DNA from: Streptomyces sp. RPT161
Lineage (GTDB): Bacteria; Actinomycetota; Actinomycetes; Streptomycetales; Streptomycetaceae
Direction of reading: 5' to 3'
DNA length: 64,000 bases
Assembly (NCBI RefSeq): GCF_027533845.1
Contig: NZ_JAPZVN010000001.1
Coordinates: 310,001 to 374,000, forward strand
In this document: positions 29,061 through 52,290 of the stretch, piece by piece
How positions within the stretch are numbered: the first letter of the stretch is position 1
How the letters are laid out: each line of letters opens with the position of its first letter
Notes under the pieces: generated by a model
The model's input: the letters and a program-made list of their open reading frames with translations, nothing else
Told to the model about the DNA's origin: nothing
Databases searched by the model: none
Made by a program: the position numbers and the translations under genes

Positions 29061-29213
29061 GACGGCACGGGCTGGCTCAGCACGTGGCGCCAGTCGTTGG
29101 CCAGCTGCACCGCACGGTGCAGGCGCTGCTCGATCAGTGCGCGAGTGGATTCCGGTTCGATGCCCTCTGCCGTACGGCGTGACCGAACCCCCACTCCACC
29201 GGAGGTGTCCGAT

Positions 29214-29453
29214 ATGCAGGTGAGCGTCGACAAGGACCGGTGCTGCGGCGCCGGCCAGTGCGTCATGGCAGCTCCCGACGTCTTCGACCAGAGCGAGGAC
29301 GACGGCCTGGTCCTGCTGCGCCCGGGCGCCGTCGAGCAGGCCGCCCGCACCGACCTGGAGCTGGCCGCCGGCCTGTGCCCGGCCGGTGCCATCACCGTGC
29401 GCGAAGACCCTCGCACCGGGTCCGGGGACGCCGACGGCACCGTCGATGCCTGA
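29214..29453 (+). CDS. ferredoxin (3Fe-4S type), P450 partner
   Basis: This 79-residue ferredoxin has CCGAGQC near residues 10-16 and a distal CPAGAI near 54, a pattern with three cluster ligands typical of streptomycete P450-associated 3Fe-4S ferredoxins. The ATG follows GGAGGTG. It is 55 bases upstream of a P450 on the same strand and should carry electrons from a ferredoxin reductase encoded elsewhere to that P450. Another possible client in the cluster is the iron-sulfur sugar dehydratase at 38.4-39.7 kb. Confidence 0.88.
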   Translation: MQVSVDKDRCCGAGQCVMAAPDVFDQSEDDGLVLLRPGAVEQAARTDLELAAGLCPAGAITVREDPRTGSGDADGTVDA

Positions 29454-29508: not shown

Positions 29509-30720
29509 ATGACTCCCGCCCCCAGTGCCGTCGCCGGCCAGGAACTGACCCTGCCCGCCCCCCGGGGTGCCTGCCCTTTCTCCCCGCCGCCCGCCTATCT
29601 CGACGCCCACCGCGCCGCCCCGCTCACCAAGATGAGTCTGTGGGACGGCGAACCCTGCTGGCTGGTGACCGGCCATCAGCAGATGCGTACGATCCTGCAG
29701 GACAAGCGGTTCAGCGCCGACGCGCGGGTCCCGGGCTTCCCCTTCCTCTCCCCCGGCCGCCGCCAGCTGCTCACCAAGGCCCAACCCAGCTTCCTGCGGC
29801 TGGACGACCCCGAGCACGCCCGGCTGCGCCGGATGCTCACCGGCGACTTCATCGTCAAGCGCGCCGAGGCCCAGCGCCCGCAGCTCCAGAAGATCGTCGA
29901 CGAGGCCCTGGACCGCATGATCGCCAAGGGCTCCCCCGCGGACCTGGTCCGGGACTTCGCCCTGCCGGTGCCCTCCCGCGTGATCTGCCTGCTGCTCGGC
30001 GTCCCGTACGCCGACCACGAGTTCTTCGAGGGCCAGACCAGCATGCTGGTGGACCTCAGCACCCCGCCGGAGCAGATCAAGGCGGCCATGGGCACGCTGA
30101 ACGGGTATCTGACCGAACTAGCCGAGCGCAAGCGGCGCGAGCCGGACGACAGCCTGCTGAGCCGACTGGTCGCACGTGGTGAGCTGAATGAGGCCGAGTG
30201 TGCGGCCATGGGCATGGTGCTGCTGGTGGCGGGCCACGAAACCACCGCCAACATGATCTCCTTCGGCACGCTGGCACTGCTGCGCAACCCCGCCCAGCTG
30301 GCCAGACTGCGGGCCGAGCCGCAGCTGATCAAGGGTGCGGTCGAGGAGCTGCTGCGCTATCTGTCCGTCGTCCACTTCGGGCTGCCGCGCGCGGCGCTGG
30401 AGGACGTCGAGATCGACGGCACGCTGATCCGGGCGGGCGAGGGCGTGCTGTGCATGCTGTCCGCGGCCAACTGGGACGAGCAGGTGTTCTCCGGCGGCGC
30501 CGAGCTGGACATCACCCGCGACGCCCGCCGTCACCTCGCCTTCGGCTTCGGTGGGCACCAGTGCATCGGCCAGCCGCTGGCCCGCGCCGAGCTCCAGATC
30601 GCGCTGGGCACGCTGCTGCGCCGACTGCCGGACCTGCGGCTGGCGGTGCCGTACGAGGAGCTGGAGTACCGCACGGACAAGGCGGTCTACGGTGTGCGCT
30701 CGCTGCCCGTGACCTGGTGA
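29509..30720 (+). CDS. cytochrome P450 monooxygenase
   Basis: This soluble bacterial P450 of 403 residues has the I-helix oxygen-activation motif AGHETT near residue 243, ExxR in EELLRYL near 280 and the heme loop FGFGGHQCIGQPLARAE near 345, whose cysteine binds heme. It lies directly downstream of its ferredoxin. By cluster context it should hydroxylate or epoxidise the aromatic polyketide or oxidise a sugar; the substrate cannot be read from sequence. It is followed by two strong hairpins that separate it from the convergent E1-beta gene. Confidence 0.9.
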   Translation: MTPAPSAVAGQELTLPAPRGACPFSPPPAYLDAHRAAPLTKMSLWDGEPCWLVTGHQQMRTILQDKRFSADARVPGFPFLSPGRRQLLTKAQPSFLRLDDPEHARLRRMLTGDFIVKRAEAQRPQLQKIVDEALDRMIAKGSPADLVRDFALPVPSRVICLLLGVPYADHEFFEGQTSMLVDLSTPPEQIKAAMGTLNGYLTELAERKRREPDDSLLSRLVARGELNEAECAAMGMVLLVAGHETTANMISFGTLALLRNPAQLARLRAEPQLIKGAVEELLRYLSVVHFGLPRAALEDVEIDGTLIRAGEGVLCMLSAANWDEQVFSGGAELDITRDARRHLAFGFGGHQCIGQPLARAELQIALGTLLRRLPDLRLAVPYEELEYRTDKAVYGVRSLPVTW

Positions 30721-30792: not shown

Positions 30793-30838
30793 GCTTCCCC
30801 GCCAGGCGCGCCCGGTCGGACAGTGCCGCGGGGACGCG

Positions 30839-30869
30839 TACGCCCCTCGGGCTGGGCCCGAGGGGCGTA
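30839..30869. terminator. perfect 14-bp hairpin terminator after the E1-beta gene
   Basis: Arms TACGCCCCTCGGGC and GCCCGAGGGGCGTA surround a TGG loop, 15 bases past the E1-beta stop on the minus strand. It forms the second half of a double terminator between convergent units. Confidence 0.75.
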
Positions 30870-30884
30870 GGGGGTGGCGTCGGG

Positions 30885-31919
30885 TCAGTACGGGCCGACG
30901 AAGCCGGCTGTGACGTCCGACAGCTTGCGCACCTGGGACGGGCCGCCGTCGACCATCTCCAGGCAGGCCGCCGCGATCCGGTCCGCGGTGGGGTGGAACG
31001 CCTCCTCCAACGGGTGCGACACCGGTGCCGGGCAGTCCGGCGGGGTGACCCGGCGCACCGGCCGGCGCAGCGCGTCGAACACGTTCTCCGCGACGACGGC
31101 CGCGACCTCGGCGGCCAGGCCGTACCGGGCCCAGCTGGTGTCCGCGACCACCAGCCGGCCCGTGCGCGCGACCGAGGCGCAGATGAGTTCCTCGTCCAGC
31201 GGGCGGACGCTGCGCACGTCGACGACCTCGACGCTGATGCCCTGTTCGGCCAGCAGGTCGGCGGCGCGCTCGGCCTCGTGCACCATCAGCGAGGCGGCGA
31301 CCACGGTCACGTCCGTGCCAGGCCGGGCGATCCGGCCGCGTCCGAAGGGGACGGCCACCGCTTCCTCGGGCACCTCGCCCGCCATGCGGTACAGGCCGCG
31401 GTTCTCCAGCAGCAGGGTCGGCGTCTGCGCACGCAGGGCCTGGACGAGCAGGCCCTTGGCGTCGGCGGGGGACGCGGGCATCGCAACGTGCAGCCCGGGG
31501 AAGTGCCCGAAGACGGACTGCAGGCTCTGCGAGTGGGTGGCGCCCTGGCCCCAGCCGCGGCCCACGACGGCGCGGGTGACCACGGGCACACCGCCCTGGT
31601 CGCCGTACATGTAGCGCCACTTGGCGGCGAGGTTCACCAGCGCGTCCATGGCTAGGAACAGGAAGTCCGCGCGGGAGTGCACGATCAGCGGGCGGCGGCC
31701 CATGGCGGCGGCCCCGACAGCGATGCCGGCGGTGGCGTTCTCGGAGTTGGGGACGTCGATGACCCGGGTGGGGCCGAACCGTTCGAAGGCCGCGCGGGTC
31801 GTGCCGTAGATGCCCTTGTCATCGTCGACGCCCTCACCCGCGACGAAGACGGCCGGGTCCTCGGCCATGCACTGCACGGTGGCCTCGCTGATGGCCTGCC
31901 AGTACGTGAGCTTGCGCAT
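30885..31919 (-). CDS. thiamine-dependent 2-oxoacid dehydrogenase E1 beta-like subunit
   Basis: This 344-residue transketolase-like pyrimidine-binding protein carries the thiamine-activating Glu in PNSENATAG near residue 60 and the active-site His in GATHSQSL near 129, followed by the C-terminal transketolase domain. It lies 4 bases after the alpha-subunit gene. No lipoyl E2 or flavin E3 gene is present in the window. Pairs like this (for example AviB1/AviB2 in the avilamycin cluster) are thought to put a two-carbon unit on a ketosugar, and this operon is full of sugar genes. The alternative is production of an acyl-CoA starter with housekeeping E2/E3. Confidence 0.85.
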   Translation of the reverse strand: MRKLTYWQAISEATVQCMAEDPAVFVAGEGVDDDKGIYGTTRAAFERFGPTRVIDVPNSENATAGIAVGAAAMGRRPLIVHSRADFLFLAMDALVNLAAKWRYMYGDQGGVPVVTRAVVGRGWGQGATHSQSLQSVFGHFPGLHVAMPASPADAKGLLVQALRAQTPTLLLENRGLYRMAGEVPEEAVAVPFGRGRIARPGTDVTVVAASLMVHEAERAADLLAEQGISVEVVDVRSVRPLDEELICASVARTGRLVVADTSWARYGLAAEVAAVVAENVFDALRRPVRRVTPPDCPAPVSHPLEEAFHPTADRIAAACLEMVDGGPSQVRKLSDVTAGFVGPY

Positions 31920-31923
31920 CGGT

Positions 31924-32925
31924 TCAGTTCCTCCCGGTGGTCGCGGCGAGCGGCTGCGGCTCGTACACGCCCGAGAGCAGGTCGGTCACGTCGGGGAAGG
32001 CGCCGGCGCGCGCGAAGTCCACGGCCCGGGCGACCTCCTCGGCGCACTCGGCCCGCCAGGTGTCGATACGGGCGTCGATGGAGGGGGCCTCGGCGCGCAG
32101 CGCGTCGGCGGCGACACGGATCGGGCAGCGCCCCATCCAGGACGCCACCTCGGCGTGGGTGCGGTAGGCGCCGTCCTCGTCCCAGTTGGGTCCGACGTGC
32201 TCGCGCCAGCGGTAGGTGTCCAGCTCCAGCAGGTGCGGGCCGTGCCCGGCGCGGGCGGCCTCGACGGCGCCGCGGGCCGCCTCGTGGACGGCAAAGACGT
32301 CGTTGCCGTCGATCCGGCTCGCCGCCATGCCGTAGCCGAGGGCCCGCTGCCAGATGCTGGTGCCCGCGGGCTGCCGGGCGGAGAGCGGCGAGGCGATGGA
32401 GTACTGGTTGTTCTCGCACACGAAGACCACCGGCAGCCGGTGCAGCGCGGCGAAGTTCAGCGACTCGTGGAAGACGCCCTCCTCCGAGGCGCCGTCGCCG
32501 AAGAAGGTGAGGGCTACGCGCGGCGCGCCTTCCATTGCGAACGCCCAGGCCGCGCCGACCGCGACGGGGATCATCTCGCCGAGGATGGCCGCCGATCCAC
32601 CGAAGCCCGCTGCGTGGTCCACCAGGTGTACCGAGCCGCCGCGGCCGCCCGCGCAGCCCGTCGCCTTGCCGTACAGCTCGGCGACCAGGGCGTGCAGGTC
32701 GCCGCCCTTGGCGAGGTAGGGCGCGTGGGAGCGGTGGGCGCTGTAGACCACGTCGGTGCGCCGGGTCGCCGCGCACACCCCGACCGCGGTGGCTTCCTGT
32801 CCGATGGAGAAGTGCGTCGGGGTGCGCATCAGCTGTTCGTCGCGGTACAGGTCCGCGAGCGTCTCCTCGGCACAGCGGATGCGCACCATGTCGCGCACCA
32901 GCCGCAGCCGGTCGTTGGTCGTCAT
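31924..32925 (-). CDS. thiamine-dependent 2-oxoacid dehydrogenase E1 alpha-like subunit
   Basis: This 333-residue protein has the thiamine-diphosphate motif GDGASEEG near residue 155 closing with CENNQYS near 186, and the histidine loop YSAHRSHAPYLAKGG near 65. These are the complete alpha-subunit features of the PDH/acetoin-dehydrogenase class. The ATG at 32925 follows AAAGGAAA. It forms a heterotetramer with the next gene's product. Position between carboxylase and beta subunit, in an operon headed by deoxysugar enzymes, suggests use of pyruvate or a similar keto acid as a two-carbon donor. The exact donor is unknown. Confidence 0.87.
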   Translation of the reverse strand: MTTNDRLRLVRDMVRIRCAEETLADLYRDEQLMRTPTHFSIGQEATAVGVCAATRRTDVVYSAHRSHAPYLAKGGDLHALVAELYGKATGCAGGRGGSVHLVDHAAGFGGSAAILGEMIPVAVGAAWAFAMEGAPRVALTFFGDGASEEGVFHESLNFAALHRLPVVFVCENNQYSIASPLSARQPAGTSIWQRALGYGMAASRIDGNDVFAVHEAARGAVEAARAGHGPHLLELDTYRWREHVGPNWDEDGAYRTHAEVASWMGRCPIRVAADALRAEAPSIDARIDTWRAECAEEVARAVDFARAGAFPDVTDLLSGVYEPQPLAATTGRN

Positions 32926-32939
32926 TGCTCTGTTTCCTT

Positions 32940-33161
32940 TCAGTGGGAGCACCAGCCGGGCCGGGCGCCGCCCGCCCACTGCCCGGCAGCGGGTACGGGA
33001 TCGGCGCCGCGCGGCCAGCGCGGCCGGGCGTCGGTCTGGTTGCCCGCGCACTGCGCGGCCTGGCGGGAGACCGCGAGCAGGGCGAGGGTGAGGACGGCGA
33101 CTTCCTCGGGCATCGGGTTGCCGCGCAGGACGCGCAGCGCCTGGGGGTCCTGGCCGGTCAC
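32940..33161 (-). CDS. acyl-CoA carboxylase epsilon subunit
   Basis: This small 73-residue protein opens with the element LRVLRGNPMPEEVAVLTLAL typical of actinobacterial AccE/PccE subunits and ends in a basic Trp-containing tail. The GTG at 33161 overlaps the beta-subunit stop as GTGA, which fixes the start. Epsilon subunits bind the beta hexamer and raise the activity of the alpha-beta carboxylase. It is in the same operon between the beta subunit and E1-alpha. Confidence 0.85.
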   Translation of the reverse strand: MTGQDPQALRVLRGNPMPEEVAVLTLALLAVSRQAAQCAGNQTDARPRWPRGADPVPAAGQWAGGARPGWCSH

Positions 33162-34813
33162 TGGGGCTGGTTCCCGTGCTTGCGGCTGGGCAACGCGCTG
33201 TACTTGGCGCGCAGCATCTTCAGTGCGGTGATCAGCTTGATGCGGGTCTCGCCGGGGTGGATGACGTCGTCGACGAGCCCGTGCTCGGCCGCGTAGTAGG
33301 GGTGCATCAGCTTGTTCTGGTACTCCTCGATCAGCCGGGCGCGGGTGCCCTCGGGGTCGTCGGACGCGGCGATCTCGCGGCGGAAGATGACGTTGGCCGC
33401 GCCCTCGGCGCCCATGACGGCGATCTCGTTGGTGGGCCAGGCCAGCGTCAGGTCGGCGCCGATGGACTGGGAGTCCATGACGATGTACGCGCCCCCGTAC
33501 GCCTTGCGCAGTACGACGGAGATGCGGGGCACGGTGGCGTTGCAGTACGCGTACAGCAGCTTGGCGCCGTGCCGGATGACGCCGCCGTGCTCCTGGTCGA
33601 CGCCCGGCAGAAAGCCCGGCACGTCGACGAGGGTAACCAGCGGGATGTTGAACGCGTCGCAGAACTGCACGAAGCGCGCGGCCTTTTCGGAGGAGGAGAT
33701 GTCGAGCACGCCCGCGAGGTCGCTCGGCTGGTTGGCGACGATGCCGGCGACCTGGCCGCCCATCCGGGTCAGCGCGCAGATGACGTTGCCGGCCCAGCGC
33801 TCGTGCACCTCGAAGTACTCGCCGTCGTCGGCGATCTCCTCGATGACCCGGCGCATGTCGTAGGAGCGGCCGCGCTCGGCGGGCACCAGGTTCACGAGGG
33901 AGTCGGTGCGCCGGTCCTCGGGGTCGTCCACCGCGGTGCGCGGCGGCAGTTCGCGGTTGTTGGCGGGCAGCAGCGACAGCAGGTAGCGCACCTCCTGCAG
34001 GCACTCCTCCTCGGTGTCGTAGGCGAACTGGGCGACTCCGGAGACACCGGTGTGCACATCGGCGCCGCCCAGCTCGTTCTGGGTGATCTGCTCGCCGGTG
34101 ACCGCCTGGACCACGTCGGGTCCGGTGATGAACATCTGCGAGGTCTCGCGCACCATGAACACGAAGTCGGTGAGCGCGGGGGAGTAGGCGGCGCCGCCCG
34201 CGCACGGGCCCATGATGACGCTGATCTGCGGAATCACTCCGGAGTTGCGGACGTTGCGCTGGAAAATACCGCCGTATCCGGCGAGCGCGGTCACGCCCTC
34301 CTGGATGCGGGCGCCGGCCCCGTCGCACAGTCCGACGATGGGCGCGCCGGCCGCGGAGGCCATGTCCATGATCTTGTGGATCTTGGTGGCGTGGGCCTCG
34401 CCGAGCGCCCCGCCGAAGATCCTGAAGTCATGGGCGTAGACGAAGACCTCGCGGCCATCGACCAGGCCCCAGCCGGTGATCACGCCGTCGGAGTGGGGGC
34501 GCTTGGCCTCCATGCCGAAGCCGGTGGCCCGGTGCCGGCGCAGCCCCTCCACCTCGGTGAAGGTGCCCTTGTCGAAGAGCAGGTCGATGCGTTCCCGGGC
34601 GGTCAGCTTGCCCTTGGCGTGCTGGGCCTCGGTGGCCTTGGCGCTGGGGCCGCGCACCACCTTCTCCTGGAGTTCCACCAGGTCGGCGACGCGGTCCTGG
34701 GTGGACCTGACCGGTTTGTCGCCGATGGGGTAGGGCGGGGCGGCGGGGGCGGACCGGCGTGCGGTCACGTCCGACGTCCGCTGCGCGACCGGGGCGTCCT
34801 CGATGATGGTCAT
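33158..34813 (-). CDS. acyl-CoA carboxylase beta subunit (PccB-like carboxyltransferase)
   Basis: This 551-residue biotin-dependent carboxyltransferase has two crotonase-like halves. Gly-rich oxyanion-hole regions are seen at GARIQEGV near 170 with MGPCAGGAAYSPAL, and in the second half at VDVPGFLPG, KAYGGAY and AWPTNEIAVMG. It transfers CO2 from biotin to acetyl- or propionyl-CoA, giving malonyl- or methylmalonyl-CoA. No biotin carboxylase/carrier alpha subunit is in the window, so it must borrow a housekeeping one. The ATG overlaps the upstream oxidoreductase stop (ATGA). It probably boosts extender supply for the polyketide. Confidence 0.93.
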   Translation of the reverse strand: MTIIEDAPVAQRTSDVTARRSAPAAPPYPIGDKPVRSTQDRVADLVELQEKVVRGPSAKATEAQHAKGKLTARERIDLLFDKGTFTEVEGLRRHRATGFGMEAKRPHSDGVITGWGLVDGREVFVYAHDFRIFGGALGEAHATKIHKIMDMASAAGAPIVGLCDGAGARIQEGVTALAGYGGIFQRNVRNSGVIPQISVIMGPCAGGAAYSPALTDFVFMVRETSQMFITGPDVVQAVTGEQITQNELGGADVHTGVSGVAQFAYDTEEECLQEVRYLLSLLPANNRELPPRTAVDDPEDRRTDSLVNLVPAERGRSYDMRRVIEEIADDGEYFEVHERWAGNVICALTRMGGQVAGIVANQPSDLAGVLDISSSEKAARFVQFCDAFNIPLVTLVDVPGFLPGVDQEHGGVIRHGAKLLYAYCNATVPRISVVLRKAYGGAYIVMDSQSIGADLTLAWPTNEIAVMGAEGAANVIFRREIAASDDPEGTRARLIEEYQNKLMHPYYAAEHGLVDDVIHPGETRIKLITALKMLRAKYSALPSRKHGNQPQ

Positions 34814-35922
34814 CTGCGTCCTTCCGCTGCGTACGGGGTGGGGTCGTCGACTGCGGTCTGCGAAGCGGTGCGGGGCGGGCGCTGCGGCGCTGCCGAGCGG
34901 CGCACCGCGTCCAGGAGGTCGGCCTGCCGCAGACAGGCGCGCGCGTCGGGGAGACCCGCCAGGTCGGTGCCGGGGGCGGCCTCTCGCCGACGGGGATCCG
35001 GGGCGGCCGCGGAGCGGCAGGCGGTCTCGAAGGCCCGGACGGTCAGGGCGACCTGGTCGGCGGGCGGCAGCTCGATCCGCTCGGTGGTTTCGCGACGCTC
35101 AAGATGGATCACCGGGCGGCGGCCGGGCGGCGGGGTGAAGGCGCGGTCCAGGGTGATCCGCCCCTCGCTGCCCCACAGTTCGTAGGCCGACCGGTAGGCG
35201 TGGTCCATGCCGAAGGTCAACTGGGCGCTGACGCCGTGCTCGTCACGCAGCAGGGCGGCACCCGCGGTCTCCACGGCGCTGCCGGGTCTCGCGTGCAGAG
35301 TCGCGGCGACGGTGTGCAGCCGCTCGCCGAGGAAGTGGACGGCGGCCCTGACCGGGTACACGCCGATGTCGAACAGCGCGCCGCCGCCGAGTTCGGGTAC
35401 GTGGCGGATGTCGTCGGCGGGCAGCCGGGGCACGGCGAACGCGGCGCTGAAGGAGCGCAGTTCGCCGATCGCCCCGTCGGCAACCAGGGCGCGCACGGCC
35501 TGGTGCTGGGGGTGATGGACGAACATGACATTCTCCATCAGCGCCAGCGAACGCTCCGCCGCCAGCGTCAGCAGCGCGCGCGTGCGCGCGGGCTCGCAGG
35601 TCAGCGGCTTCTCGGCGAGAACGTGCTTGCCGGCCAGCAGCGCCGCTTCCGCCCAGGTGGCGTGCAGCACGGCGGGCAGCGGTATGTACACCGCGTCCAC
35701 GTCGTCCAGGCCGAGCAGATGCGCATAGCCAGTGACGGGGCGGCAGCCGTACCGGCCCGCGACGTCGGTGGCCTGTGCCGCGTCACGGCTGGCGACCGCG
35801 GCGATCTCAATGCCGTCGGCAGCCGCGAAGGCGGGCAGCATCCGCCGCCGGGCGATGTCCGCACACCCCAGCACCCCTATGCGCAGGGGACGTCCGGAGA
35901 GGTCGCGTGCGGGCTCAGCCAT
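34810..35922 (-). CDS. Gfo/Idh/MocA oxidoreductase, NDP-hexose 3-ketoreductase
   Basis: This 370-residue protein has an N-terminal Rossmann domain (IGVLGCADIARR near 15-26) and EKPL near 103, whose Lys is catalytic in the family. Homologues such as UrdT/LanT/TylC-type enzymes reduce the 3-keto group left by the 2,3-dehydratase to give a TDP-4-keto-2,6-dideoxyhexose. The start ATG at 35922 overlaps the stop of the 2,3-dehydratase by 8 bases (ATGGCTGA), matching functional pairing of the two steps. The C-terminal 30 residues are Arg/Pro-rich and look dispensable. Confidence 0.87.
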   Translation of the reverse strand: MAEPARDLSGRPLRIGVLGCADIARRRMLPAFAAADGIEIAAVASRDAAQATDVAGRYGCRPVTGYAHLLGLDDVDAVYIPLPAVLHATWAEAALLAGKHVLAEKPLTCEPARTRALLTLAAERSLALMENVMFVHHPQHQAVRALVADGAIGELRSFSAAFAVPRLPADDIRHVPELGGGALFDIGVYPVRAAVHFLGERLHTVAATLHARPGSAVETAGAALLRDEHGVSAQLTFGMDHAYRSAYELWGSEGRITLDRAFTPPPGRRPVIHLERRETTERIELPPADQVALTVRAFETACRSAAAPDPRRREAAPGTDLAGLPDARACLRQADLLDAVRRSAAPQRPPRTASQTAVDDPTPYAAEGRR

Positions 35923-37315
35923 GGTCGCCCAGCTCCGCCGCCAGGCAGGCCGCCAGGGTACGGGCCTGGACGTTGACACAGTGCCCCTGCTGGATGAACC
36001 AGGACAGCTGACCGGGCGTCAGCCAACGGTAGCCGGGCGGTTCGTCCAGCGGTGCCTGCGTCTCGTCGGCGTCGATCAGCAGGTAGCGGCTGACGGCGTC
36101 GAGGAAGCGCCCGCCCTCCTCGGAGTGCAGCGCCTCGTAGCGGATGCGGGAGGGGTCGGCCCGCAGCGCTAGGTCCAGGAACGGGGGCCGTTCGTGAGCG
36201 GGCAGGCCCGCGTAGTTGTCCGGCGTACACATCACGGTCGGCGACAGCTCGACGGTCTCCCGCAGCCCGCCCTCTCTCCTGGCGTGCGCGAGCAGGTGCG
36301 GCACACCGTCGATGCGGCGGGTCAGCATGGCGGCGATGCCCTGCCCGCGCGGGCGGAACAGCGGCTGAGTCCAGTAGGTGACCTCACGGCTGCCGGCCTC
36401 CACGGACGCGGCCACTACGTCGAAGTAGCGGCCGTGGATCTGGTGGATGGTGTGCGCGTCGCGCTCCCAGCCCGGCAGTCCCGCTAGCGGCACGCGGTCG
36501 GTGCGGACGTCGTGCCGGGAGCGCGACTCGGTCAGCCAGAAGGCGAGTTCGGCGTCGGAGTGCAGCGCGCTGGTACCGGCCTCGGCGTCCGTCATGGGCA
36601 CGCAGGACAGGACCGTACGGGCGTCCATGTTCACCAGGTTGTCCAGCCGGAGCAGTTGCGCGATCTGCCCGAAGGTGAGCCAGCAAAAGTCGTCGTACAG
36701 CGGTACGTCGTCCGTCGTCTCCACGATCATGTTGCGGTTGTGCTTGCCGTGGAACCAGGAGCCGTGCTCGGACTGGAGGACGTCGGCGAGGACCGTGGCG
36801 CGTCCGGTGCGGGTGAAGTACTCGAGGTACTTCACGTCCGCGCCCCGGTGCACCTTCGTGTAGTTGGAGCGGGTGGCTTGGACGGTCGGCGACAGCTGGA
36901 GCAGGTTGGGATTGCCTGGCTCCATCTTGGCCTGCATCAGGCAGTGCAGCACCCCGTCGAACTCCTTGACGAGGATGCCGAGGACCCCGATCTCCGGCTG
37001 CCTGATGATGGGCTGGTACCAGCCGCCGGGGCCTGAGTCGACGGTCACCCGCAGCCCTTCGACGCTGAAGAAGCGCCCGCTGTGGTGGCGGAGGTTTCCC
37101 GTGCCCTCCTCGGTGTACCAGCCCTCCAACTCGGCGAACGGGATGGTGCCGACCCGGAAGGGGTGGGCCGCGCGCCGCCAGGCGAACCAGCGGTGGAACT
37201 GCCCGAGATCCAGGTGCGCGCCCTGGGCGGCCGCGGCGGAACGAGCGATCCGGGCGGCCGGGGCCGCGTCGTACCGCGGCCGCAACGCGGTGGGCACTGC
37301 GAGCATGGGTGACAT
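35915..37315 (-). CDS. NDP-hexose 2,3-dehydratase (EvaA/UrdS/TylX3 family)
   Basis: This 466-residue protein is built of two homologous halves. The first contains WYQPIIRQPEIGVLG and LQLSPTVQATRSNY. The second contains TYWTQPLFRPRGQGIAAML and VELSPTVMCTPDNY. This internal duplication is the hallmark of the family. It removes the C2 hydroxyl of TDP-4-keto-6-deoxyglucose, committing the sugar to a 2-deoxy series. The start is an ATG at 37315; the 265-base spacer upstream is GC-rich and holds no gene I can support. It overlaps the 3-ketoreductase downstream. Confidence 0.93.
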   Translation of the reverse strand: MSPMLAVPTALRPRYDAAPAARIARSAAAAQGAHLDLGQFHRWFAWRRAAHPFRVGTIPFAELEGWYTEEGTGNLRHHSGRFFSVEGLRVTVDSGPGGWYQPIIRQPEIGVLGILVKEFDGVLHCLMQAKMEPGNPNLLQLSPTVQATRSNYTKVHRGADVKYLEYFTRTGRATVLADVLQSEHGSWFHGKHNRNMIVETTDDVPLYDDFCWLTFGQIAQLLRLDNLVNMDARTVLSCVPMTDAEAGTSALHSDAELAFWLTESRSRHDVRTDRVPLAGLPGWERDAHTIHQIHGRYFDVVAASVEAGSREVTYWTQPLFRPRGQGIAAMLTRRIDGVPHLLAHARREGGLRETVELSPTVMCTPDNYAGLPAHERPPFLDLALRADPSRIRYEALHSEEGGRFLDAVSRYLLIDADETQAPLDEPPGYRWLTPGQLSWFIQQGHCVNVQARTLAACLAAELGDHG

Positions 37316-37580
37316 GCCGGGGGTCTCCTCGACGTCGTACGGACGGTTGAACGGGTCGGGTTGAGGGCGGGACGGGCGGGGCCCGGCCGAGGCGGCGCGG
37401 GCGGCCCTCGGTGCCGCAGGCCGACGGGGGGCCAGCGGACGGGGTCCGCGTGCAACGGGCCGAGGCGGCCGAAGTCAGCGCTGTGGTCGGCGGGTTGCGG
37501 ACGTGGCCGAGCGAGCCGCCCGGCGAATCCCGGGCCGGCCGACGGCGCCGACGTCGGCGAGCCGCCGGGCGGGTCCGGGA

Positions 37581-38342
37581 TCAGCGGCCGCCCGCCACCG
37601 TCAGGGACTCGCCGGTGATGTTGCCGTTGGCCCCCGAGCACAGGAACACCACGGCGGCGGCCACGTCCTCGGGGTCGCTCAGCCGTCCGGTGGGCGTCGC
37701 GGCGATCTCCCGCGCGCGGACCGGCTCCGGCAGTCCCTTGAGCATCCGCTCGGTCACCGTCAGCCCCGGGCAGACCACGTTGACCAGCAGACCGTCACCG
37801 CCGAGGTCCCACATGAGGCTGCGGGCAAGGCCGTGCAGCCCCGCCTTGGCAGCCCCGTAGAACTCCTGGCCGCGGTTGCCGCCCAGCGCGTTGTGCGAGG
37901 AGATCAGTGCGATCCGGCCCCAGCCCCGCCGCCGCATGCCGGGCACGGCCTGCTGGACGGTACGGATCACGGGCGCGAGGTTGCCGTCCACGACCGGCAG
38001 CCAGTCCTCCTCGGGCACGTTCTCGAACGGGGTGCCGGGCGCCCTGCGCACGCCCCAGCGCACCGCGTTGGCCACCAGGACGTCCAGGGATCCCCAGCGC
38101 TCCTCGACGGCGGCCACCACGTGCCGGGGCGAGGCGGGGTCGTCCAGGGCGTAGGCGACGGGGAAGGCCCGGTCCTGCGCGGCGCCCAGCTCCTGCGCCA
38201 ACTCCTCCGCCGCGTCACCGTCGTTGCGGTACGACACCGCGACGCGGGCGCCCTCCTGGGAGAAGGCGCGGGCCACCGCCCGGCCGATTCCACTGGTGGC
38301 CCCCGTGACCAGCACGGTGCGTTCCCTCAGGCCAAGGTCCAT
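37581..38342 (-). CDS. short-chain dehydrogenase/reductase
   Basis: This 253-residue classical SDR has the cofactor loop TGATSGIG near residue 14, NAVRWG near 93, catalytic Ser in ALISSHN near 146 and YGAAK near 162, all intact and NADPH-type in appearance. The ATG at 38342 follows AAAGGA. Its position between the 3,4-dehydratase and 2,3-dehydratase genes suggests a ketoreduction in deoxysugar assembly. It could equally be a polyketide ketoreductase, since it resembles FabG-type reductases. Confidence 0.82.
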   Translation of the reverse strand: MDLGLRERTVLVTGATSGIGRAVARAFSQEGARVAVSYRNDGDAAEELAQELGAAQDRAFPVAYALDDPASPRHVVAAVEERWGSLDVLVANAVRWGVRRAPGTPFENVPEEDWLPVVDGNLAPVIRTVQQAVPGMRRRGWGRIALISSHNALGGNRGQEFYGAAKAGLHGLARSLMWDLGGDGLLVNVVCPGLTVTERMLKGLPEPVRAREIAATPTGRLSDPEDVAAAVVFLCSGANGNITGESLTVAGGR

Positions 38343-38392
38343 GTCCGATCCTTTGCGTCCTTGTCGTACGGGTGCGAGCGGCGGGCAGACGG

Positions 38393-39697
38393 TCATCCGC
38401 GGGCCGCGACGAATTCCTTGATCGTGCCGATGACGTAATCGAGCATTTCGTCGGTGAGGGCGGGATAGACGCCGATCCAGAAGGTGTGCTCGGTGATGAC
38501 GTCACTGTTGGTGAGGTCGCCGACGACGCGGTGGGGCTGGTTGACGTAGGCGGGCTGGCGGGTGAGGTTGCCAGCGAAGAGGCGGCGGGTGCCGATCTTG
38601 CGCTCCTCCAGGTGCGCGACGAGTTCGGCGCGGCTGAAAGGAGCGTCGGGGAGGACCGTGAGGACGAAGCCGAACCAGCTCGGGTCGCTGCCCGCAGTCG
38701 GCACCGGGAGCAACAGGTGGGGCAGGCCGTCCAGTCCCTCGCGCAGCCGGCGCCAGTTGTGCTTGCGGGCGGCGGTGAACTCCTCCAGGCGGTTGAGCTG
38801 GCTCAGGCCGAGGGCGGCCTGGAGGTCGGTCGCCTTCAGGTTGTAACCGATGTGGGAGAAAATGTACTTGTGGTCGTAGCCATGGGGCAGGGCGCCCATC
38901 TGGTGGTCGAACCGCTTGAAGCAGGTGTTGTTCTTGCCAGGTTCGCACCAGCAGTCCCGGCCCCAGTCGCGCAGGGACTCCACGATCCGGGCCAGCTGGA
39001 GGTTGGACGTCAGCACGCAGCCGCCCTCGCCCATGGTGAGGTGGTGGGCGGGGTAGAAACTGACGGTGGTCACGTCGCCGAACGTGCCGGTGACCTGGCC
39101 CTGGTAGGTGGTGCCGACCGCGTCGCAGTTGTCCTCGACGAAGTAGAGGTCGTGGGCGCGGGCCAGCTCGGCGATCTCTGCGGCCTCGAAGGGGTTGCCG
39201 AGGGCGTGGGCGATCATGATGGCCCGGGTCTTGGGGCCGATGGCCTGGGCGACGCGGTCCGCGGTGGTGTTGTACGTCCCCAGTTCCACGTCGACGAAGA
39301 CGGGCACGAGGCCGTTCTGGACGATGGGGTTGACGGTGGTGGGGAAGCCTGCCGCCACGGTGATGACCTCGTCGCCCGGCTTGAGGCGCCGGTCCCCCAG
39401 GGTGTGGGAGGTCAGGGCGGTAAGGGCGAGGAGGTTGGCGGATGACCCGGAGTTGGTCAGATGGGCCTTGCGGCGCCTGAGGGCCTTGGCGAAGCGTGAT
39501 TCGAAGCTGCGGGAGCTGGCCCCGGCCGCGATGCGCAGGTCGAGGGCGGCTTCCACCAGCGCGACCCGGTCATCGGCGTTCAGGGTCGCCCCGGACGGCC
39601 AGATCTCGGTCACCCCCGGCTCGAACGGCCGGTTGTCCGTGACGTCCTCGTGGTACCTGCGGACCTGGTCGAGAATGAGCGCCTTGTCGCCGCGCAT
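38393..39697 (-). CDS. NDP-hexose 3,4-dehydratase (SpnQ/UrdQ/RfbH-like, PMP and [2Fe-2S])
   Basis: This 434-residue DegT-family protein is specialised for C3 deoxygenation. The PLP lysine is replaced by His in YPAHHLTMGEGG near 217, so it uses PMP. A cysteine set in DCWCEPGKNNTC near 246-256 matches the iron-sulfur ligands of RfbH/ColD-type E1 enzymes. Together with a reductase it makes TDP-4-keto-2,3,6-trideoxyhexose, the precursor of rhodinose, amicetose and similar sugars. No dedicated E3 reductase is adjacent; the ferredoxin at 29.2 kb could serve. AAGGAGG precedes the ATG. It is the first gene of the leftward operon. Confidence 0.93.
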   Translation of the reverse strand: MRGDKALILDQVRRYHEDVTDNRPFEPGVTEIWPSGATLNADDRVALVEAALDLRIAAGASSRSFESRFAKALRRRKAHLTNSGSSANLLALTALTSHTLGDRRLKPGDEVITVAAGFPTTVNPIVQNGLVPVFVDVELGTYNTTADRVAQAIGPKTRAIMIAHALGNPFEAAEIAELARAHDLYFVEDNCDAVGTTYQGQVTGTFGDVTTVSFYPAHHLTMGEGGCVLTSNLQLARIVESLRDWGRDCWCEPGKNNTCFKRFDHQMGALPHGYDHKYIFSHIGYNLKATDLQAALGLSQLNRLEEFTAARKHNWRRLREGLDGLPHLLLPVPTAGSDPSWFGFVLTVLPDAPFSRAELVAHLEERKIGTRRLFAGNLTRQPAYVNQPHRVVGDLTNSDVITEHTFWIGVYPALTDEMLDYVIGTIKEFVAARG

Positions 39698-39886: not shown

Positions 39887-39925
39887 CGAGCGGCATTCGA
39901 GCGGGGCCGTCTAGCGTCCGCGGTG
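39887..39925 (+). promoter_or_regulatory. promoter for a leaderless epimerase transcript
   Basis: TAGCGT (39912-39917) lies 8 bases before the ATG, placing the transcription start at or next to the start codon. The upstream part (AGCGGCATTC, 13 bases from TTC to TAGC) closely matches the segment before the SDR at 55.0 kb. Confidence 0.5.
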
Positions 39926-40540
39926 ATGGACATCCATGACACGGCCGTGCCCGATGCCTACCGGATCGTGCCGCGTGTGCTCACCGACGCCCGCGGCAGC
40001 TTCCACGAGTCGTTCCGCCACGAGGAGCTGGCGCGCGCCACCGGACACTGGCTGCTTCCGCGGCAGGTCAACTACTCCTCGTCCCGGCGCGGCACGGTGC
40101 GCGGTCTGCACTCGGTGCTGCTGCCACCCGGCCAGGCGAAGTACGTCACCTGTGTGCGCGGCGCGGTACGGGACTTCGTCGTCGACGTACGCCTGGGCTC
40201 GCCCGCCTTCGGCGCGTACACCACGGCGGTGCTCGACCCCCGCGAGGGCACCGGCATGTACGTGGCCGAGGGGCTCGCCCATGGGTTCGTGGCGCTGACC
40301 GACGACGCGTGTGTGAGTTACCTGTGCTCCACCGAGTACGTGCCCGGCACCCAGGTCGACATCTTCCCCTTCGACCCGGAACTCGGCGTGCCCTGGCATC
40401 TGGGGGTCGCCGGGGAGCCGCTGCTGTCGGAGAAGGACGCGGCGGCCCCCTCGCTGGCCCGCGCCGCCGACCTGGGTCTGCTCGCTCCGTACGACGCATG
40501 TCTGGCCCACTACGCGGCCCGGCGGCGAGCGGCACGGTAG
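39926..40540 (+). CDS. TDP-4-keto-6-deoxyhexose 3,5-epimerase (RmlC family)
   Basis: This 204-residue RmlC-type cupin has the catalytic His region GTVRGLHSV near residue 61 and a second conserved segment GLAHGFVAL near 119, with VVDVRLGSPAFG between them. It epimerises C5, or C3 and C5, of a 4-keto sugar and so turns the D-series into the L-series. It points away from the main sugar operon across a 228-base promoter spacer. The sequence suggests a leaderless mRNA, which supports the ATG at 39926. It is followed by IS debris. Confidence 0.9.
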   Translation: MDIHDTAVPDAYRIVPRVLTDARGSFHESFRHEELARATGHWLLPRQVNYSSSRRGTVRGLHSVLLPPGQAKYVTCVRGAVRDFVVDVRLGSPAFGAYTTAVLDPREGTGMYVAEGLAHGFVALTDDACVSYLCSTEYVPGTQVDIFPFDPELGVPWHLGVAGEPLLSEKDAAAPSLARAADLGLLAPYDACLAHYAARRRAAR

Positions 40541-41031: not shown

Positions 41032-42255
41032 CTAGCCGCGGGCAGCGAGTTCGGTGAGGTCGCTGGCCACGCGGGACGGGGCGGGCAGGGAGCGGACCTC
41101 GTCCCGCAGCGCCAGCGCCGCGTCCCGCGCGGGCCCGGCCAGCAGGTCCAGGACCGCGTCCCGCACCCGGGCCGCGGCCTTCTCGTCGCCCGTCAGGTCA
41201 CCGCCGGACAGGTGCCGGCCCGCGCCGACGGCGCGCAGCCGCTCCCCGGTGAGCATCTGCTCGGGGCGGGGGGACACCACGAGCTGCGGCGTTCCGACGG
41301 CCGCCGCGGTCATGGCCGTACCGCCGCTGCCCTGGTGGGCGACGGCCTCGCAGGTGGCGAGGAGCAGATGCAGCGCGGAGGTGTCCATCGCCCGCACTCC
41401 GTCGGGCAGCCGGGTGAGCGCGGCGCGCTGGGCGGGGCCGAGGGCCAGGAACACCTCCAGACCGTCGGCGGCCAGCAGCCCGGCCGCGGCCAGCAGCGGG
41501 TCGGGGCCGTCTCCGGGCGGGCCGGCCGGGCGGGCGCCAGCCTCCCAGGTGACGCACACCCGGGGTCGCGCCGGCTTCCCGAGCAGCCCGGCCGGCAACT
41601 CGGCGGGGCCGCTGTACGGAACGTGCCGCACCGACAACCGGCGCTCTTCAGTAGGAAGTTGGAGCATCGGCGGGCAGGGGTCCAGCCAGCCGAGGGGGGT
41701 GTGCACGGGGTCCGCGCCGTAGTGCTCGAACAGGTGGCGGTAGCCGGGCAGCGGGCTGCCTCCCGGACCGCTGTGCTCCAGTCTGAGCACGGCCGCGCCG
41801 CCCCACAGGTGGGCGGCCAGCGGCACATCCAGCAGCTGCGACACGACCGTGCCCGCGTAGGTGGAGCCGTCGGCGACGATCAGATCGGGACGCCAGGTGC
41901 GGGCGAATTCCAGTAGGCCGGGCACCATGTCGCCCGCGATCCGCAACTGCCGGTCCACCAGGGAGCCGAGCATCCGTCGCCGTTCCGCGCCCAGTTCCGC
42001 GAGCCGCAGCGGCCAGTCCGCGGGCCAGTCCCGCAGGACGGCGGCGGCCCGCGGACCGCCCATCGCGGGGGGCGCGGCAGGCGGCGCGGTGACGCCGACG
42101 GCCACCGCGGTCAGCCCGGCGGCGCCCACCGCGGGAGCGCAGTCGGACGGTACGGCGACGAGCACCTCGTGCCCCGCTGCCCGGCAGGCCCAGGCGAGCG
42201 GCACCATCGGGAAGAGATGCGCGGACGCGGACCAGGTGGTGAAGAGAATGCGCAC
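41032..42255 (-). CDS. GT1-family glycosyltransferase
   Basis: This 407-residue GT-B enzyme resembles polyketide glycosyltransferases of the UrdGT/LanGT kind. It has the N-terminal ILFTTWSASAHLFPMVPLAWA acceptor-domain opening and, in the C-terminal domain, HQGSGGTAMTA near 310, which binds the nucleotide sugar. I chose the GTG at 42255 (GGAGGAG precedes it) because upstream sequence belongs to the antisense of the cyclase gene. It should attach a TDP-deoxyhexose to the aglycone or extend a sugar chain. It is last in the operon with the cyclase and a second glycosyltransferase. Confidence 0.9.
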   Translation of the reverse strand: MRILFTTWSASAHLFPMVPLAWACRAAGHEVLVAVPSDCAPAVGAAGLTAVAVGVTAPPAAPPAMGGPRAAAVLRDWPADWPLRLAELGAERRRMLGSLVDRQLRIAGDMVPGLLEFARTWRPDLIVADGSTYAGTVVSQLLDVPLAAHLWGGAAVLRLEHSGPGGSPLPGYRHLFEHYGADPVHTPLGWLDPCPPMLQLPTEERRLSVRHVPYSGPAELPAGLLGKPARPRVCVTWEAGARPAGPPGDGPDPLLAAAGLLAADGLEVFLALGPAQRAALTRLPDGVRAMDTSALHLLLATCEAVAHQGSGGTAMTAAAVGTPQLVVSPRPEQMLTGERLRAVGAGRHLSGGDLTGDEKAAARVRDAVLDLLAGPARDAALALRDEVRSLPAPSRVASDLTELAARG

Positions 42256-43253: not shown

Positions 43254-44429
43254 TCAGGAGGTGGCGCGGGCTTCCAGGTAGCCGACCAGTTCACCGGGTA
43301 GCGGCATGGCCTCGATCTCCTGGCGGACCTGCCGGGCGCGCTCGGCGTAGCGGGGCTCGCCCAGGACGTCCTCGATAGCGGTGCGCAGCGCGCCGGGTGT
43401 GGACTGGCGGTCGGGCTCGACGATGGTCCCGGCCTGCGCCTGCTCGACGAGTTCGCCCCACAGCCACTGCGTGGACTCGGTGTTGTCGGGCACCGTGACC
43501 TGCGGGACGCCGTGGGCGAAGCCCGTCATGCCGGTGCCCGCGCCACCGTGGTGCACGAGAAGGTCGCAGGTGGGCAGCAGGGCGCCCAGCGGCAGCCAGC
43601 CGGTGGTGCGTACGTTGGCGGGCAGCGGGCCGGCGGCGTCCTCGGCGCCAGCCACGGCCAGCACGACCTCGGCGTCCACGCCGGCCACCTCATCGAGGAG
43701 CTGGCGGCGGCGGTCGGCGAAGTTGCTGGTGGTGATGCCGCCGGACAGGCACACCCGCGGCCGGCCGGGGCGGTCGAGCAGCCAGTCGGGGACCGTGCCC
43801 GGGCCGTTGTAGGGGATGTAGCGCACGGGGACGCGCGGGACGCGGGAGGGGCGGCGCAGCGCGGGAGGGCAGGTGTCGATCCAGGTGTCGGTGCCGATCC
43901 GGGGCTCGACGCCGAAGCGCTCGAACATTCGGACGTAGGCGGGCGGCACTTCCTTCTCGTCGAGGAAGTAGATGCCAATGGGCTGGCACCAGTTGTAGCC
44001 CACGGCCGGGACGCCGACCGCCGCGGCGGTGACCAGGCCGACGACCGCGCCGATGTCGTACACGACGAGGTCGGGGCGCCAGGCGCGGGCGAAGGCGACG
44101 AGGTCGTCGGCGAGCGAGTCGGCGAGTCCGATGAGCTGCGACGCCCAGCTCAGGCGGCGCTTCTCGGGCCAGGGCAGCGGCCCCATCGGCCAGTCCGCGG
44201 GGACCCGTTCGGGGCGCTCGGCGCTGTCGGGGATGCGCCATGCGGCGAAGGCGTCACCGGCCGCGCGGTCGCCGATGGGCACGGCGATCAGGCCGGCGGC
44301 CTTGACGTGGTCGACGGACTGCGGCCGGGCCGCGACCCGCACCTCGTGGCCCGCCAGTTGGGTGGCCCAGGCCAGGGGTACGGCCCAGGGGACATGGCTG
44401 GCCCCGTGGGCGACAAAGAGGACACGCAT
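43254..44429 (-). CDS. GT1-family glycosyltransferase
   Basis: This 391-residue GT-B glycosyltransferase begins RVLFVAHGASHVPWAVPLAW and carries VHHGGAGTGMTG near 297, the sugar-nucleotide binding motif with the conserved His. It is similar in layout to the second glycosyltransferase at 41.0-42.3 kb, but the two are clearly different in sequence, so they likely transfer different sugars or act on different positions. The start is an ATG at 44429. The cyclase gene begins 37 bases downstream. Confidence 0.9.
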   Translation of the reverse strand: MRVLFVAHGASHVPWAVPLAWATQLAGHEVRVAARPQSVDHVKAAGLIAVPIGDRAAGDAFAAWRIPDSAERPERVPADWPMGPLPWPEKRRLSWASQLIGLADSLADDLVAFARAWRPDLVVYDIGAVVGLVTAAAVGVPAVGYNWCQPIGIYFLDEKEVPPAYVRMFERFGVEPRIGTDTWIDTCPPALRRPSRVPRVPVRYIPYNGPGTVPDWLLDRPGRPRVCLSGGITTSNFADRRRQLLDEVAGVDAEVVLAVAGAEDAAGPLPANVRTTGWLPLGALLPTCDLLVHHGGAGTGMTGFAHGVPQVTVPDNTESTQWLWGELVEQAQAGTIVEPDRQSTPGALRTAIEDVLGEPRYAERARQVRQEIEAMPLPGELVGYLEARATS

Positions 44430-51267: not shown

Positions 51268-52290
51268 ATGAGACTTCTGGTCATCGGTGGAACGGTCTTC
51301 CTGGGCAAGGCCTTCGTGGCCGACGCCCTCGCCCGCGGCTGGGAGGTCACCACCTTCCACCGCGGCCGCTCCGGCGCCGACCTGCCCGGCGTCGAGACGA
51401 TCACGGGCGACCGCGAGAACGAGGCCGATCTCGCGCGGCTGGCCGCAGCGGGACCCTGGGACGCGGTGGTCGACGTGTGCGGCTATGTGCCCCGCGTGGT
51501 CGGCGCCTCGGCCCGCGAGCTGAGCCGTCAGGCCGGCACCTACCTGTACGTCTCCTCCATCAACGCCCTGCAGCCCTGGCCCGCGGCCCCCGTCGACGAG
51601 TCCTCGCCGCGCTTCGCGTGCTCCCCCGAGGCCGGCCCAGACGACGGCCAGTACCCCGCGCTGAAGGCCGGCTGCGAGCGCGCCGTCGAACGGGACTTCG
51701 ACGGCCGGGTGCTGGTGCTGCGCCCCGGTGTGGTCATCGGCCCCGGCGACCGCATGCGGCGCATCCCCTACTGGCTGCGGCGGGCCGCGCAGGGCGGGCG
51801 GATGCTCGCCGCGGGCTCCCCCGGCCGCACGATGCAGCTGATCGACGCCCGGGACATCGCGGCCTTCGGCCTGGACCGCATCGCGGCGTGCGGCTCCGGC
51901 ACCTATCTGACCACCGGTGAGCCCGGCAACGCCACGTGGGGTGAACTCATCGAGCAGGTGGTGTCGTTGACGGACGCAGGCACTGAGCCGGTGTGGGTGG
52001 AGGACGCGTTCCTCTCCGCCCAGCAGATCCCGCCGTTCGTGACCGTGCCGTTCTGGGCGCCGCCCACGGAACAGCTCGCCAGTGTCTGGGACTTCTCCTC
52101 GAAGAAGGCGCTGGAGGACGGGCTGCGCTGCCGCCCCTTCGCCGAGTCCGTGCGCGACACCTGGACCTGGATGACGGAACAGGGCGGTATGGAGGAGGCG
52201 TTCGCGGAGTACCGCTACCCGGACCAGACGCTGACCCGCGAGCGGGAGGCGCAGATCCTGGCGGCCTGGGACGCGCGCGAGTCGGGCTGA
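51268..52290 (+). CDS. NAD(P)-dependent epimerase/reductase (extended or atypical SDR)
   Basis: This 340-residue protein has the cofactor loop VIGGTVFLGKAF near residue 5, as in atypical SDRs. The expected YxxxK is present as YPALK near 128. It resembles bacterial NAD-epimerase/reductase proteins seen in polyketide and sugar pathways; a sugar 4-ketoreductase or a tailoring reductase are both possible. Reaction and substrate cannot be fixed by eye. It is convergent with a flavin monooxygenase gene across a 21-bp perfect hairpin. Confidence 0.75.
   Translation: MRLLVIGGTVFLGKAFVADALARGWEVTTFHRGRSGADLPGVETITGDRENEADLARLAAAGPWDAVVDVCGYVPRVVGASARELSRQAGTYLYVSSINALQPWPAAPVDESSPRFACSPEAGPDDGQYPALKAGCERAVERDFDGRVLVLRPGVVIGPGDRMRRIPYWLRRAAQGGRMLAAGSPGRTMQLIDARDIAAFGLDRIAACGSGTYLTTGEPGNATWGELIEQVVSLTDAGTEPVWVEDAFLSAQQIPPFVTVPFWAPPTEQLASVWDFSSKKALEDGLRCRPFAESVRDTWTWMTEQGGMEEAFAEYRYPDQTLTREREAQILAAWDARESG

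Follow-up and report, generated by a model that had tools for sequence, protein, structure and literature searches.

An E1-alpha/E1-beta gene pair in a deoxysugar operon of Streptomyces sp. RPT161 as a candidate sugar-branching carboligase

A pair of genes for E1-alpha and E1-beta subunits lies in a deoxysugar operon of Streptomyces sp. RPT161, and this arrangement raises the question of whether the encoded proteins serve a 2-oxoacid dehydrogenase or attach a two-carbon unit to a sugar and, if the latter, to which sugar. The locus was studied in a 64-kb stretch of DNA (G000:C1:310001-374000 of a 7.69-Mb genome), hereafter called the window, to which all position numbers refer; genes were called with a simple GC-position scorer, so that all starts are approximate. 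A first-pass annotation of this DNA had described both genes as complete, had seen no E2 or E3 genes in the window, and had noted that the pair is co-directional with genes for a 2,3-dehydratase, a 3-ketoreductase and a SpnQ-type dehydratase. These observations hold, and two carboxylase genes and a gene for a short-chain dehydrogenase/reductase (SDR) are now added to the operon. On the basis of sequence comparisons, we judge that the pair is very probably an E2-independent, sugar-branching carboligase that uses thiamine diphosphate (ThDP). The acceptor that we favour, with a probability of about 0.6, is thymidine diphosphate (TDP)-4-keto-2,3,6-trideoxyhexose.

Pfam domains and motifs indicate that both subunits are complete, and their genes are only 4 bases apart. 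The pair carries the ThDP motif GDG..NN, and E1-beta has the motifs NSENA and HSQS. Across 11 relatives, E1-beta is 70-85% identical. Matches to curated models for the E1 of pyruvate dehydrogenase (PDH) all fall below the cut-offs (297.6 versus 393.85 for TIGR03182, and 227.6 versus 411.35 for TIGR03181), as does the match of E1-beta to PRK09212 (301.9 bits, cut-off 321). Alignment at a conserved histidine of E1-alpha pairs the loop TYRYHGHSMSDP of the human PDH subunit with TYRWREHVGPNWDED of the window protein. The human-type histidine loop (YHGHSMSDP) is absent from the window E1-alpha, where WREHVGPNWDED stands in its place. In true E1 enzymes this loop helps to make contact with E2, and we infer that its replacement by the form H-x-G-P marks independence from E2.

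The pair was placed in one tree made from both subunits. From 117 loci with E1-alpha matches, 111 were kept, giving 112 pairs with the window; the sources were the genome itself, 23 loci of the same family with identity under 50%, close relatives, named genome contigs and plasmids. Loci L004, L025, L077, L091, L092 and L116 were dropped beforehand for a subunit that was incomplete or gave no hit, and three weak E1_dh matches of the source genome (L005-L007) were left out. The named loci were not drawn at random, being the best 80 of the 578 loci confirmed to match the window protein. One pair (G701) was kept even though its E1-beta reads as two pieces, perhaps due to a frameshift, and G866 and G814, which were found later, are outside the tree. 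No neighbourhood information was used in building it. The window pair falls within a 44-member group (support 1.0), inside which 12 close actinobacterial pairs form a single clade (support 1.0), a grouping that rests on uncharacterised pairs, most of them beside sugar genes. The H-x-G-P loop is present in 43 of the 44 group members and in none of the 68 other pairs, and both pairs found after the tree was made share it; H-x-G-S was seen once within the group (L061) and once outside (L099, HFGS). Five actinobacterial pairs (L027, L029, L036, L037 and L039) carry a different loop, DHQGV, and are neither PDH-like nor members of the sugar-associated group.

Gene neighbourhoods divide along the same line. 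Among loci with flanks of at least 4 kb on both sides, an E2 gene was detected within 6 kb at 0 of 29 group loci versus 12 of 18 outside loci, and a nucleotide-sugar gene at 25 of 29 (the window counted) versus 0 of 18, with Fisher p values of 3.6e-7 and 1.6e-9, respectively, in which kinship is ignored. With all flanks included, the E2 counts are 0/44 and 25/68, and those for nucleotide-sugar genes are 34/44 and 0/68. The sugar queries were window proteins, and E2 was sought with the three E2 proteins of the source genome, a search that is not fully sensitive given that six of the 18 outside loci had no detected E2. Within the window, a whole-genome domain search placed neither an E2 (PF00198) nor an E3-type (PF02852) domain. 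On the contig, the E2 domain closest to the pair lies some 107 kb off, in an open reading frame (ORF) of 1301 amino acids that has its own E1 domain, and the nearest PF02852 domain is about 291 kb away. For the two other E1 pairs of the genome, an E2 is encoded at a distance of about 2 kb, and both pairs are located outside the group that holds the window pair.

Because the genome's E2-linked pairs lie elsewhere in the tree, no E2 or E3 is near, the loop is replaced and the neighbours are sugar genes, we do not consider the pair to belong to PDH or to a branched-chain 2-oxoacid dehydrogenase. Such an E1, making acyl-CoA precursors or starter units, would agree with the fold and family of the proteins and with the acyl-CoA carboxylase genes that adjoin them, but the tree, the missing partners, the loop and the scores below the PDH cut-offs make it extremely unlikely, and it was rejected on the first three of these grounds. 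The first-pass annotation had named clustering with BkdFG or acetoin dehydrogenase, together with E2/E3 genes elsewhere in the cluster, as what would speak against its own proposal; what was found is that the E2-linked pairs of this genome group elsewhere. Given that type II polyketide genes are present in the same cluster, the acceptor of the two-carbon unit might alternatively be a ketone on the polyketide aglycone and not a sugar. In other phyla, however, pairs belonging to this group adjoin sugar genes, and we regard this reading as very unlikely.

Outside the close actinobacterial clade, the group contains 32 pairs (L043-L071, L074, L102 and L145) with no detected E2, many of which sit beside nucleotide-sugar genes. 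Their hosts include Planctomycetota, Omnitrophota, Acidobacteria, Nitrospirae, Chloroflexi, Alpha- and Gammaproteobacteria, as well as two archaea and others; metagenome-assembled genomes account for many of these. On a plasmid of Azospirillum oryzae, the pair is surrounded by genes annotated as a PfkB kinase, a SIS protein, SDRs, two DegT aminotransferases and glycosyltransferases. In the metagenome-assembled genome of a Nitrososphaeria archaeon, a tight operon (L048:7874-13036) comprises genes for a glycosyltransferase, a GDP-mannose dehydratase-like epimerase, E1-alpha, E1-beta and a DegT aminotransferase, which suggests a sugar that is both branched and aminated. For branched sugars of Gram-negative bacteria, passages of two papers name YerE (PMC4425429, PMC12247030). 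We tentatively propose, at odds that we place a little short of even, that the window pair belongs to a large and separate family of E1-type carboligases acting on sugars, in whose E1-alpha subunits H-x-G-P has taken the place of the E2-docking loop. The role of these enzymes would extend beyond antibiotics: in many bacterial phyla and in archaea they would serve surface-polysaccharide loci by making sugars with two-carbon branches, and in the present cluster they would naturally branch a 2,3,6-trideoxyhexose, providing a pillarose-type pathway at the gene level.

The identity of the acceptor is approached through the sugar genes of the cluster. RmlA, RmlB, a 2,3-dehydratase, a 3-ketoreductase and a SpnQ-type 3-dehydrase together make TDP-4-keto-2,3,6-trideoxyhexose, and the sequence matches support the presence of all of these enzymes in the cluster. 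The first-pass proposal that the operon builds this intermediate thereby gains backing from matches to RfbH, AscC, EvaA and a known 3-ketoreductase. Apart from the two-domain protein of the operon, no 2,3-dehydratase was found in the genome. Likewise, the 3-dehydrase is the sole SpnQ match in the genome; it matches AscC (PDB 3bcx, 521 bits), it carries histidine (YPAHH) in place of the aminotransferase lysine, and its cysteines are spaced as C-x57-C-x1-C-x7-C. This spacing is the SpnQ iron-sulphur motif, and both the spacing and the exchange of the pyridoxal phosphate lysine for histidine are marks of the family. Genes for 4-keto-2,3,6-trideoxyhexose and the E1 pair therefore co-occur in one cluster.

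Homologues of the pair were used to assess whether this co-occurrence is general. There are 14 actinobacterial pairs in all, drawn from the window, sampled genomes, Streptomyces noursei and two plasmids. In a sample of the family, the 3-dehydrase is present in 5 of 7 carriers of the pair (source included) versus 80 of 387 other genomes, or 85 of 394 overall (Fisher p 0.006, from a small sample with kinship ignored). We favour the trideoxy acceptor owing to the linkage of the two functions in G000, G250 and G476, to the single 2,3-dehydratase and single 3-dehydrase of the genome, and to the precedent of paulomycin discussed below.

Several observations weigh against this choice. Natural co-location of the pair and SpnQ in the same stretch is limited to those three of the 14 cases, and in four others (G017, G263, G351 and G701) SpnQ is encoded at another locus; in G263 and G351 it resides in sugar cassettes that include separate RmlA, RmlB and RmlC genes and lie on contigs other than that of the pair. 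In G017, the pair is on a different contig from the sugar genes. SpnQ was not found in five whole genomes and two plasmid records that carry the pair, the genomes having no match at 1e-30 (G142, G116) or at 1e-100 (G866, G814 and S. noursei). This scarcity implies that relatives of the pair need no trideoxy acceptor, and the clade as a whole is not dependent on trideoxy sugars. SpnQ may also make a second, unbranched sugar, as the two glycosyltransferases of the cluster would allow, and several SDRs or the aldo/keto reductase could be an unrecognised 4-ketoreductase.

These points lead to a two-sugar alternative, wherein the pair branches TDP-4-keto-2,6-dideoxyhexose before the 3-dehydrase acts, while SpnQ feeds an unbranched 2,3,6-trideoxyhexose (rhodinose or amicetose), each sugar having its own glycosyltransferase. 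In octoses of the quinocycline or trioxacarcin type, branching occurs at the 2,6-dideoxy stage. The distribution of the 2,3-dehydratase agrees with this scheme, as this enzyme is present in 9 of 9 genomes tested and SpnQ is unmatched in five genomes of relatives. The 2,3-dehydratase gene shares a stretch with the pair in 9 of the 14 cases and is on another contig in three (G017, G263 and G701), and it was not found in the 21 kb of S. noursei or the 81 kb of S. albogriseolus that were searched. However, the unbranched sugar would need a 4-ketoreductase, and none is clearly recognised: no strong canonical enzyme of this kind was recognised among the 39 cluster proteins scanned, and the weak NAD-epimerase-like candidate at 51268-52290, the sole member of the epimerase family besides RmlB to come into question, has no match in PDB at 1e-6. 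Moreover, the genome's one 2,3-dehydratase and one SpnQ would have to serve both sugars. We consider the two-sugar scheme unlikely.

The pair might also act after glycosyl transfer, on the glycoside itself. This sequence of events is compatible with either a trideoxy acceptor or the two-sugar scheme, such that our estimate for it, which is that it is somewhat unlikely, does not exclude theirs. It has been proposed for avilamycin and paulomycin in a passage of PMC4425429, and the G017 pair has a glycosyltransferase and tailoring genes in its vicinity rather than the nucleotide-sugar genes. On the other hand, the pair lies between 2,3-dehydratase and RmlC genes in G351 and G814 and beside an RmlA-like gene in G476, and a scheme in PMC4802897 shows the nucleotide sugar as the species that is branched. 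Branching before transfer cannot be told from branching after it by gene order alone.

With a trideoxy acceptor, the proposed route would proceed as follows. RmlA, RmlB, the 2,3-dehydratase, the 3-ketoreductase and the SpnQ-type 3-dehydrase would deliver the 4-keto intermediate, with the RmlC-like epimerase available for the L series. The pair would decarboxylate pyruvate as the donor and add a hydroxyethyl carbanion equivalent to the C4 ketone of the deoxysugar, yielding a tertiary alcohol with a 4-C-acetyl branch. The expected product would be a 4-C-acetyl-2,3,6-trideoxyhexose on a type II polyketide, and the cytochrome P450 encoded next to E1-beta might oxidise the branch to glycoloyl, as in pillarose, although this last step is a guess. 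The first-pass suggestion of C4 branching of a trideoxyhexose is accordingly sustained in that the tree, the lack of E2/E3, the loop and the sugar neighbours indicate a ketosugar-branching pair, whereas the acceptor, the C4 site and the glycoloyl group stay at the level of inference.

Among three genomes of its own genus, only the source genome matches E1-alpha at 1e-60. Of 393 other genomes sampled from the family, six encode E1-alpha homologues at 66-78% identity, the next matches listed being at most 48% identical, and a class sample (E 1e-100) added 2 of 393 other genomes from two other families. Homologues also occur in 3 of 392 genomes of the genus of G250 (G250 included) and in 2 of 70 of the genus of G142, both already in the set. 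The best 80 of 578 loci from named genome contigs include one Streptomyces (S. noursei A-2-1, 69%), the rest being at most 54% identical. G250 retains nearly the whole cluster in nearly the same gene order. In G017, contig C11 carries the E1 pair, one glycosyltransferase, tailoring genes, a P450 and a ferredoxin, and C22 carries polyketide synthase (PKS) and sugar genes, including those for the 3-dehydrase, SDR, 2,3-dehydratase, 3-ketoreductase and carboxyltransferase; this split looks real since both loci are far from contig ends. In G476, which belongs to another family, about 11 kb of DNA holds genes for the 2,3-dehydratase, the 3-dehydrase, a glycosyltransferase, the E1 pair, an RmlA-like protein and RmlB, and the surrounding region also has type II PKS genes.

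In the window, the operon runs on the minus strand from 39697 to 30885 in the order 3-dehydrase, SDR, 2,3-dehydratase, 3-ketoreductase, carboxyltransferase, epsilon subunit, E1-alpha and E1-beta (Table 1). Its genes overlap or sit within about 50 bases of each other, the sole larger gap being the roughly 270 bases between the SDR and 2,3-dehydratase genes. A hairpin that follows E1-beta is a possible end of the operon, although it is not accompanied by a run of T residues. Around the operon are genes for ketosynthases (KS-alpha and KS-beta), an acyl carrier protein, a ketoreductase, aromatase/cyclases and three flavin hydroxylases, which make the locus part of a type II polyketide glycoside cluster; the same cluster includes RmlA, RmlB, the RmlC-like epimerase and two EryCIII-like glycosyltransferases. 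The carboxyltransferase presumably supplies malonyl-CoA for the polyketide. The FabG-like SDR, which is kept in the same gene order and is 89% identical in G250 and 74% in G017, is possibly a 4-ketoreductase or a polyketide reductase. The P450 at 29509-30720 (85% identical in G250, 84% in G017) is a candidate hydroxylase of the branch or of the aglycone. A role of the aldo/keto reductase as a Pau7-like octose ketoreductase is not supported, its best NCBIfam models being those for glyceraldehyde 3-phosphate reductase and Kv-beta, both below their cut-offs.

Table 1. Coordinates of the E1 pair, sugar genes and other features in the 64-kb window.
Feature	Position	Strand	Evidence
Cytochrome P450, convergent with E1-beta	29509..30720	+	PF00067; PDB matches include several CYP105 enzymes
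Small ferredoxin	29205..29453	+	PF13459 45.2 bits
Hairpin just 3' of E1-beta	30838..30870	-	Minimum free energy -38.2 kcal/mol for 30820-30890, z -4.45
E1-beta subunit, ThDP carboligase (predicted), 344 amino acids	30885..31919	-	Pfam Transket_pyr 98.9, Transketolase_C 132.6 bits
E1-alpha subunit, 333 amino acids	31924..32925	-	Pfam E1_dh 214.7 bits; GDG..NN from residue 143; EHVGP loop from residue 242
Acyl-CoA carboxylase epsilon subunit, 73 amino acids	32940..33161	-	PF13822 35.6 bits; 57% identical in G250
Acyl-CoA carboxylase carboxyltransferase (beta) subunit	33158..34813	-	PF01039 643.6 bits
Nucleoside diphosphate (NDP)-hexose 3-ketoreductase, Gfo/Idh/MocA	34810..35979 (alternative start 35874)	-	PDB 3rbv sugar 3-ketoreductase 308 bits
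NDP-hexose 2,3-dehydratase	35915..37315	-	PF03559 506.7 bits; PDB EvaA 4j7g 571 bits
FabG-like SDR	37581..38342 (start approximate, to 38396)	-	Pfam adh_short_C2
SpnQ/AscC-type pyridoxamine phosphate (PMP) + [2Fe-2S] NDP-4-keto-hexose 3-dehydrase	38393..39697	-	NCBIfam RfbH 673.1 bits, cut-off 423
RmlC-like dTDP-4-ketohexose 3,5- or 5-epimerase	39923..40540	+	PF00908 172.4 bits
EryCIII-like glycosyltransferase 1	41032..42255	-	Domain search
EryCIII-like glycosyltransferase 2	43254..44429	-	Domain search; near E1 pair in G017
NAD-epimerase-like protein, weak candidate 4-ketoreductase	51268..52290	+	PF01370 40.6 bits, N-terminal part only
Aldo/keto reductase	57575..58600	-	PF00248 252.2 bits
RmlB-like dTDP-glucose 4,6-dehydratase	60305..61288	-	Domain search
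RmlA-like glucose-1-phosphate thymidylyltransferase	61285..62352	-	Domain search

Two further features of the polyketide cluster were observed. A gene for the mycothiol conjugate amidase Mca (47212-48096; 412.9 bits, cut-off 277.15) is located inside the cluster and is kept in G250 and G017, which hints at an electrophilic product or intermediate. Just outside the window (L009:15339-19376), genes for a YcaO cyclodehydratase and a ThcOx-type oxidase adjoin the type II PKS. The YcaO gene is kept in both G250 and G017, and the oxidase is kept in G250, whereas in G017 less than half of it is matched. A 52-amino-acid ORF (DDLVIEDL...FVCWAE) at the same locus has a counterpart in G250, but none was found in G017. 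A peptide-polyketide hybrid is one possible outcome of this arrangement.

A natural operon that couples 3-deoxygenation to E1 branching makes readily available a carboligase that may act on a trideoxyhexose, which would be useful in the making of branched-sugar antibiotics. If the loop signature proves true in a wider sample, it would provide a simple genome test that separates sugar-branching from true dehydrogenase E1 pairs, and it points to possible unrecognised branched sugars outside actinomycetes.

With regard to known products, the sugar predicted here resembles pillarose of pillaromycin A, a two-carbon branched sugar with the structure given in the first-pass annotation (a 4-C-glycoloyl-2,3,6-trideoxyhexose), and the sugar of hibarimicin is a 4-C-acetyl-2,3,6-trideoxyhexose. 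A partial literature search found no gene clusters for pillaromycin A or hibarimicin and, as judged by titles and the start of abstracts, no natural cluster that joins a 3-dehydrase and an E1 pair. A related system is the type II polyketide cluster on plasmid pSGRIFU1 of S. griseofuscus, whose E1 pair is 70/73% identical. RmlA and the 2,3-dehydratase are encoded about 29 kb from that pair, on the same plasmid and across the polyketide genes, and the plasmid differs in that a SpnQ homologue was not found on it.

Other parallels come from the literature. According to PMC12247030, pillaromycin A, which has an oxidised branch, is presumably made by an alphaKADH2-type enzyme. The same paper describes pairs of this type for aldgamycin, kosinostatin and kibdelomycin, puts the number of clusters with such a pair at about 120, and states that no experimental structure exists for these enzymes. 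The present pair is similar by description to the alphaKADH2 carboligases of kibdelomycin (KbDH-alpha/beta) and aldgamycin, KbDH having been reported there to carry out pyruvate-dependent ketone coupling in vitro, but those pairs branch at C3. It is similar, again by description, to AviB1/AviB2 of avilamycin, a PDH-like pair for a two-carbon sugar branch (passages of PMC4425429 and PMC4753412), which differs in serving a eurekanate pathway rather than a trideoxyhexose; Pau11 and AviB1 are given as only 37% identical in PMC4425429.

Paulomycin offers the nearest functional precedent. Its Pau11/Pau12 (Plm8/Plm9) pair likewise accompanies a 2,3-dehydratase and RmlA, RmlB and RmlC functions (passages of PMC4425429 and PMC4753412), and is proposed to attach a two-carbon chain at C4 (the same passages, and PMC4802897). 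As reported in PMC4802897, a strain of S. albus J1074 from which the native sugar genes had been deleted produced 3'-demethoxyl-paulomycins when given an L-amicetose/L-olivose plasmid, from which the authors concluded that Plm8/Plm9 attach the chain to 2,3,6-trideoxyhexoses as well. Because acceptance of a 2,3,6-trideoxyhexose has been reported in this engineered strain, the chemistry is already known, and the first-pass suggestion that the combination might be undescribed is weakened; what is uncommon is the natural gene combination of a 3-dehydrase and an E1 pair. In the accounts cited, the paulomycin system differs from the present one in that its aglycone is derived from chorismate, its pair naturally acts on a 2,6-dideoxyhexose and the genes for the trideoxy sugar were plasmid-borne, whereas here the 3-dehydrase is encoded in the operon itself.

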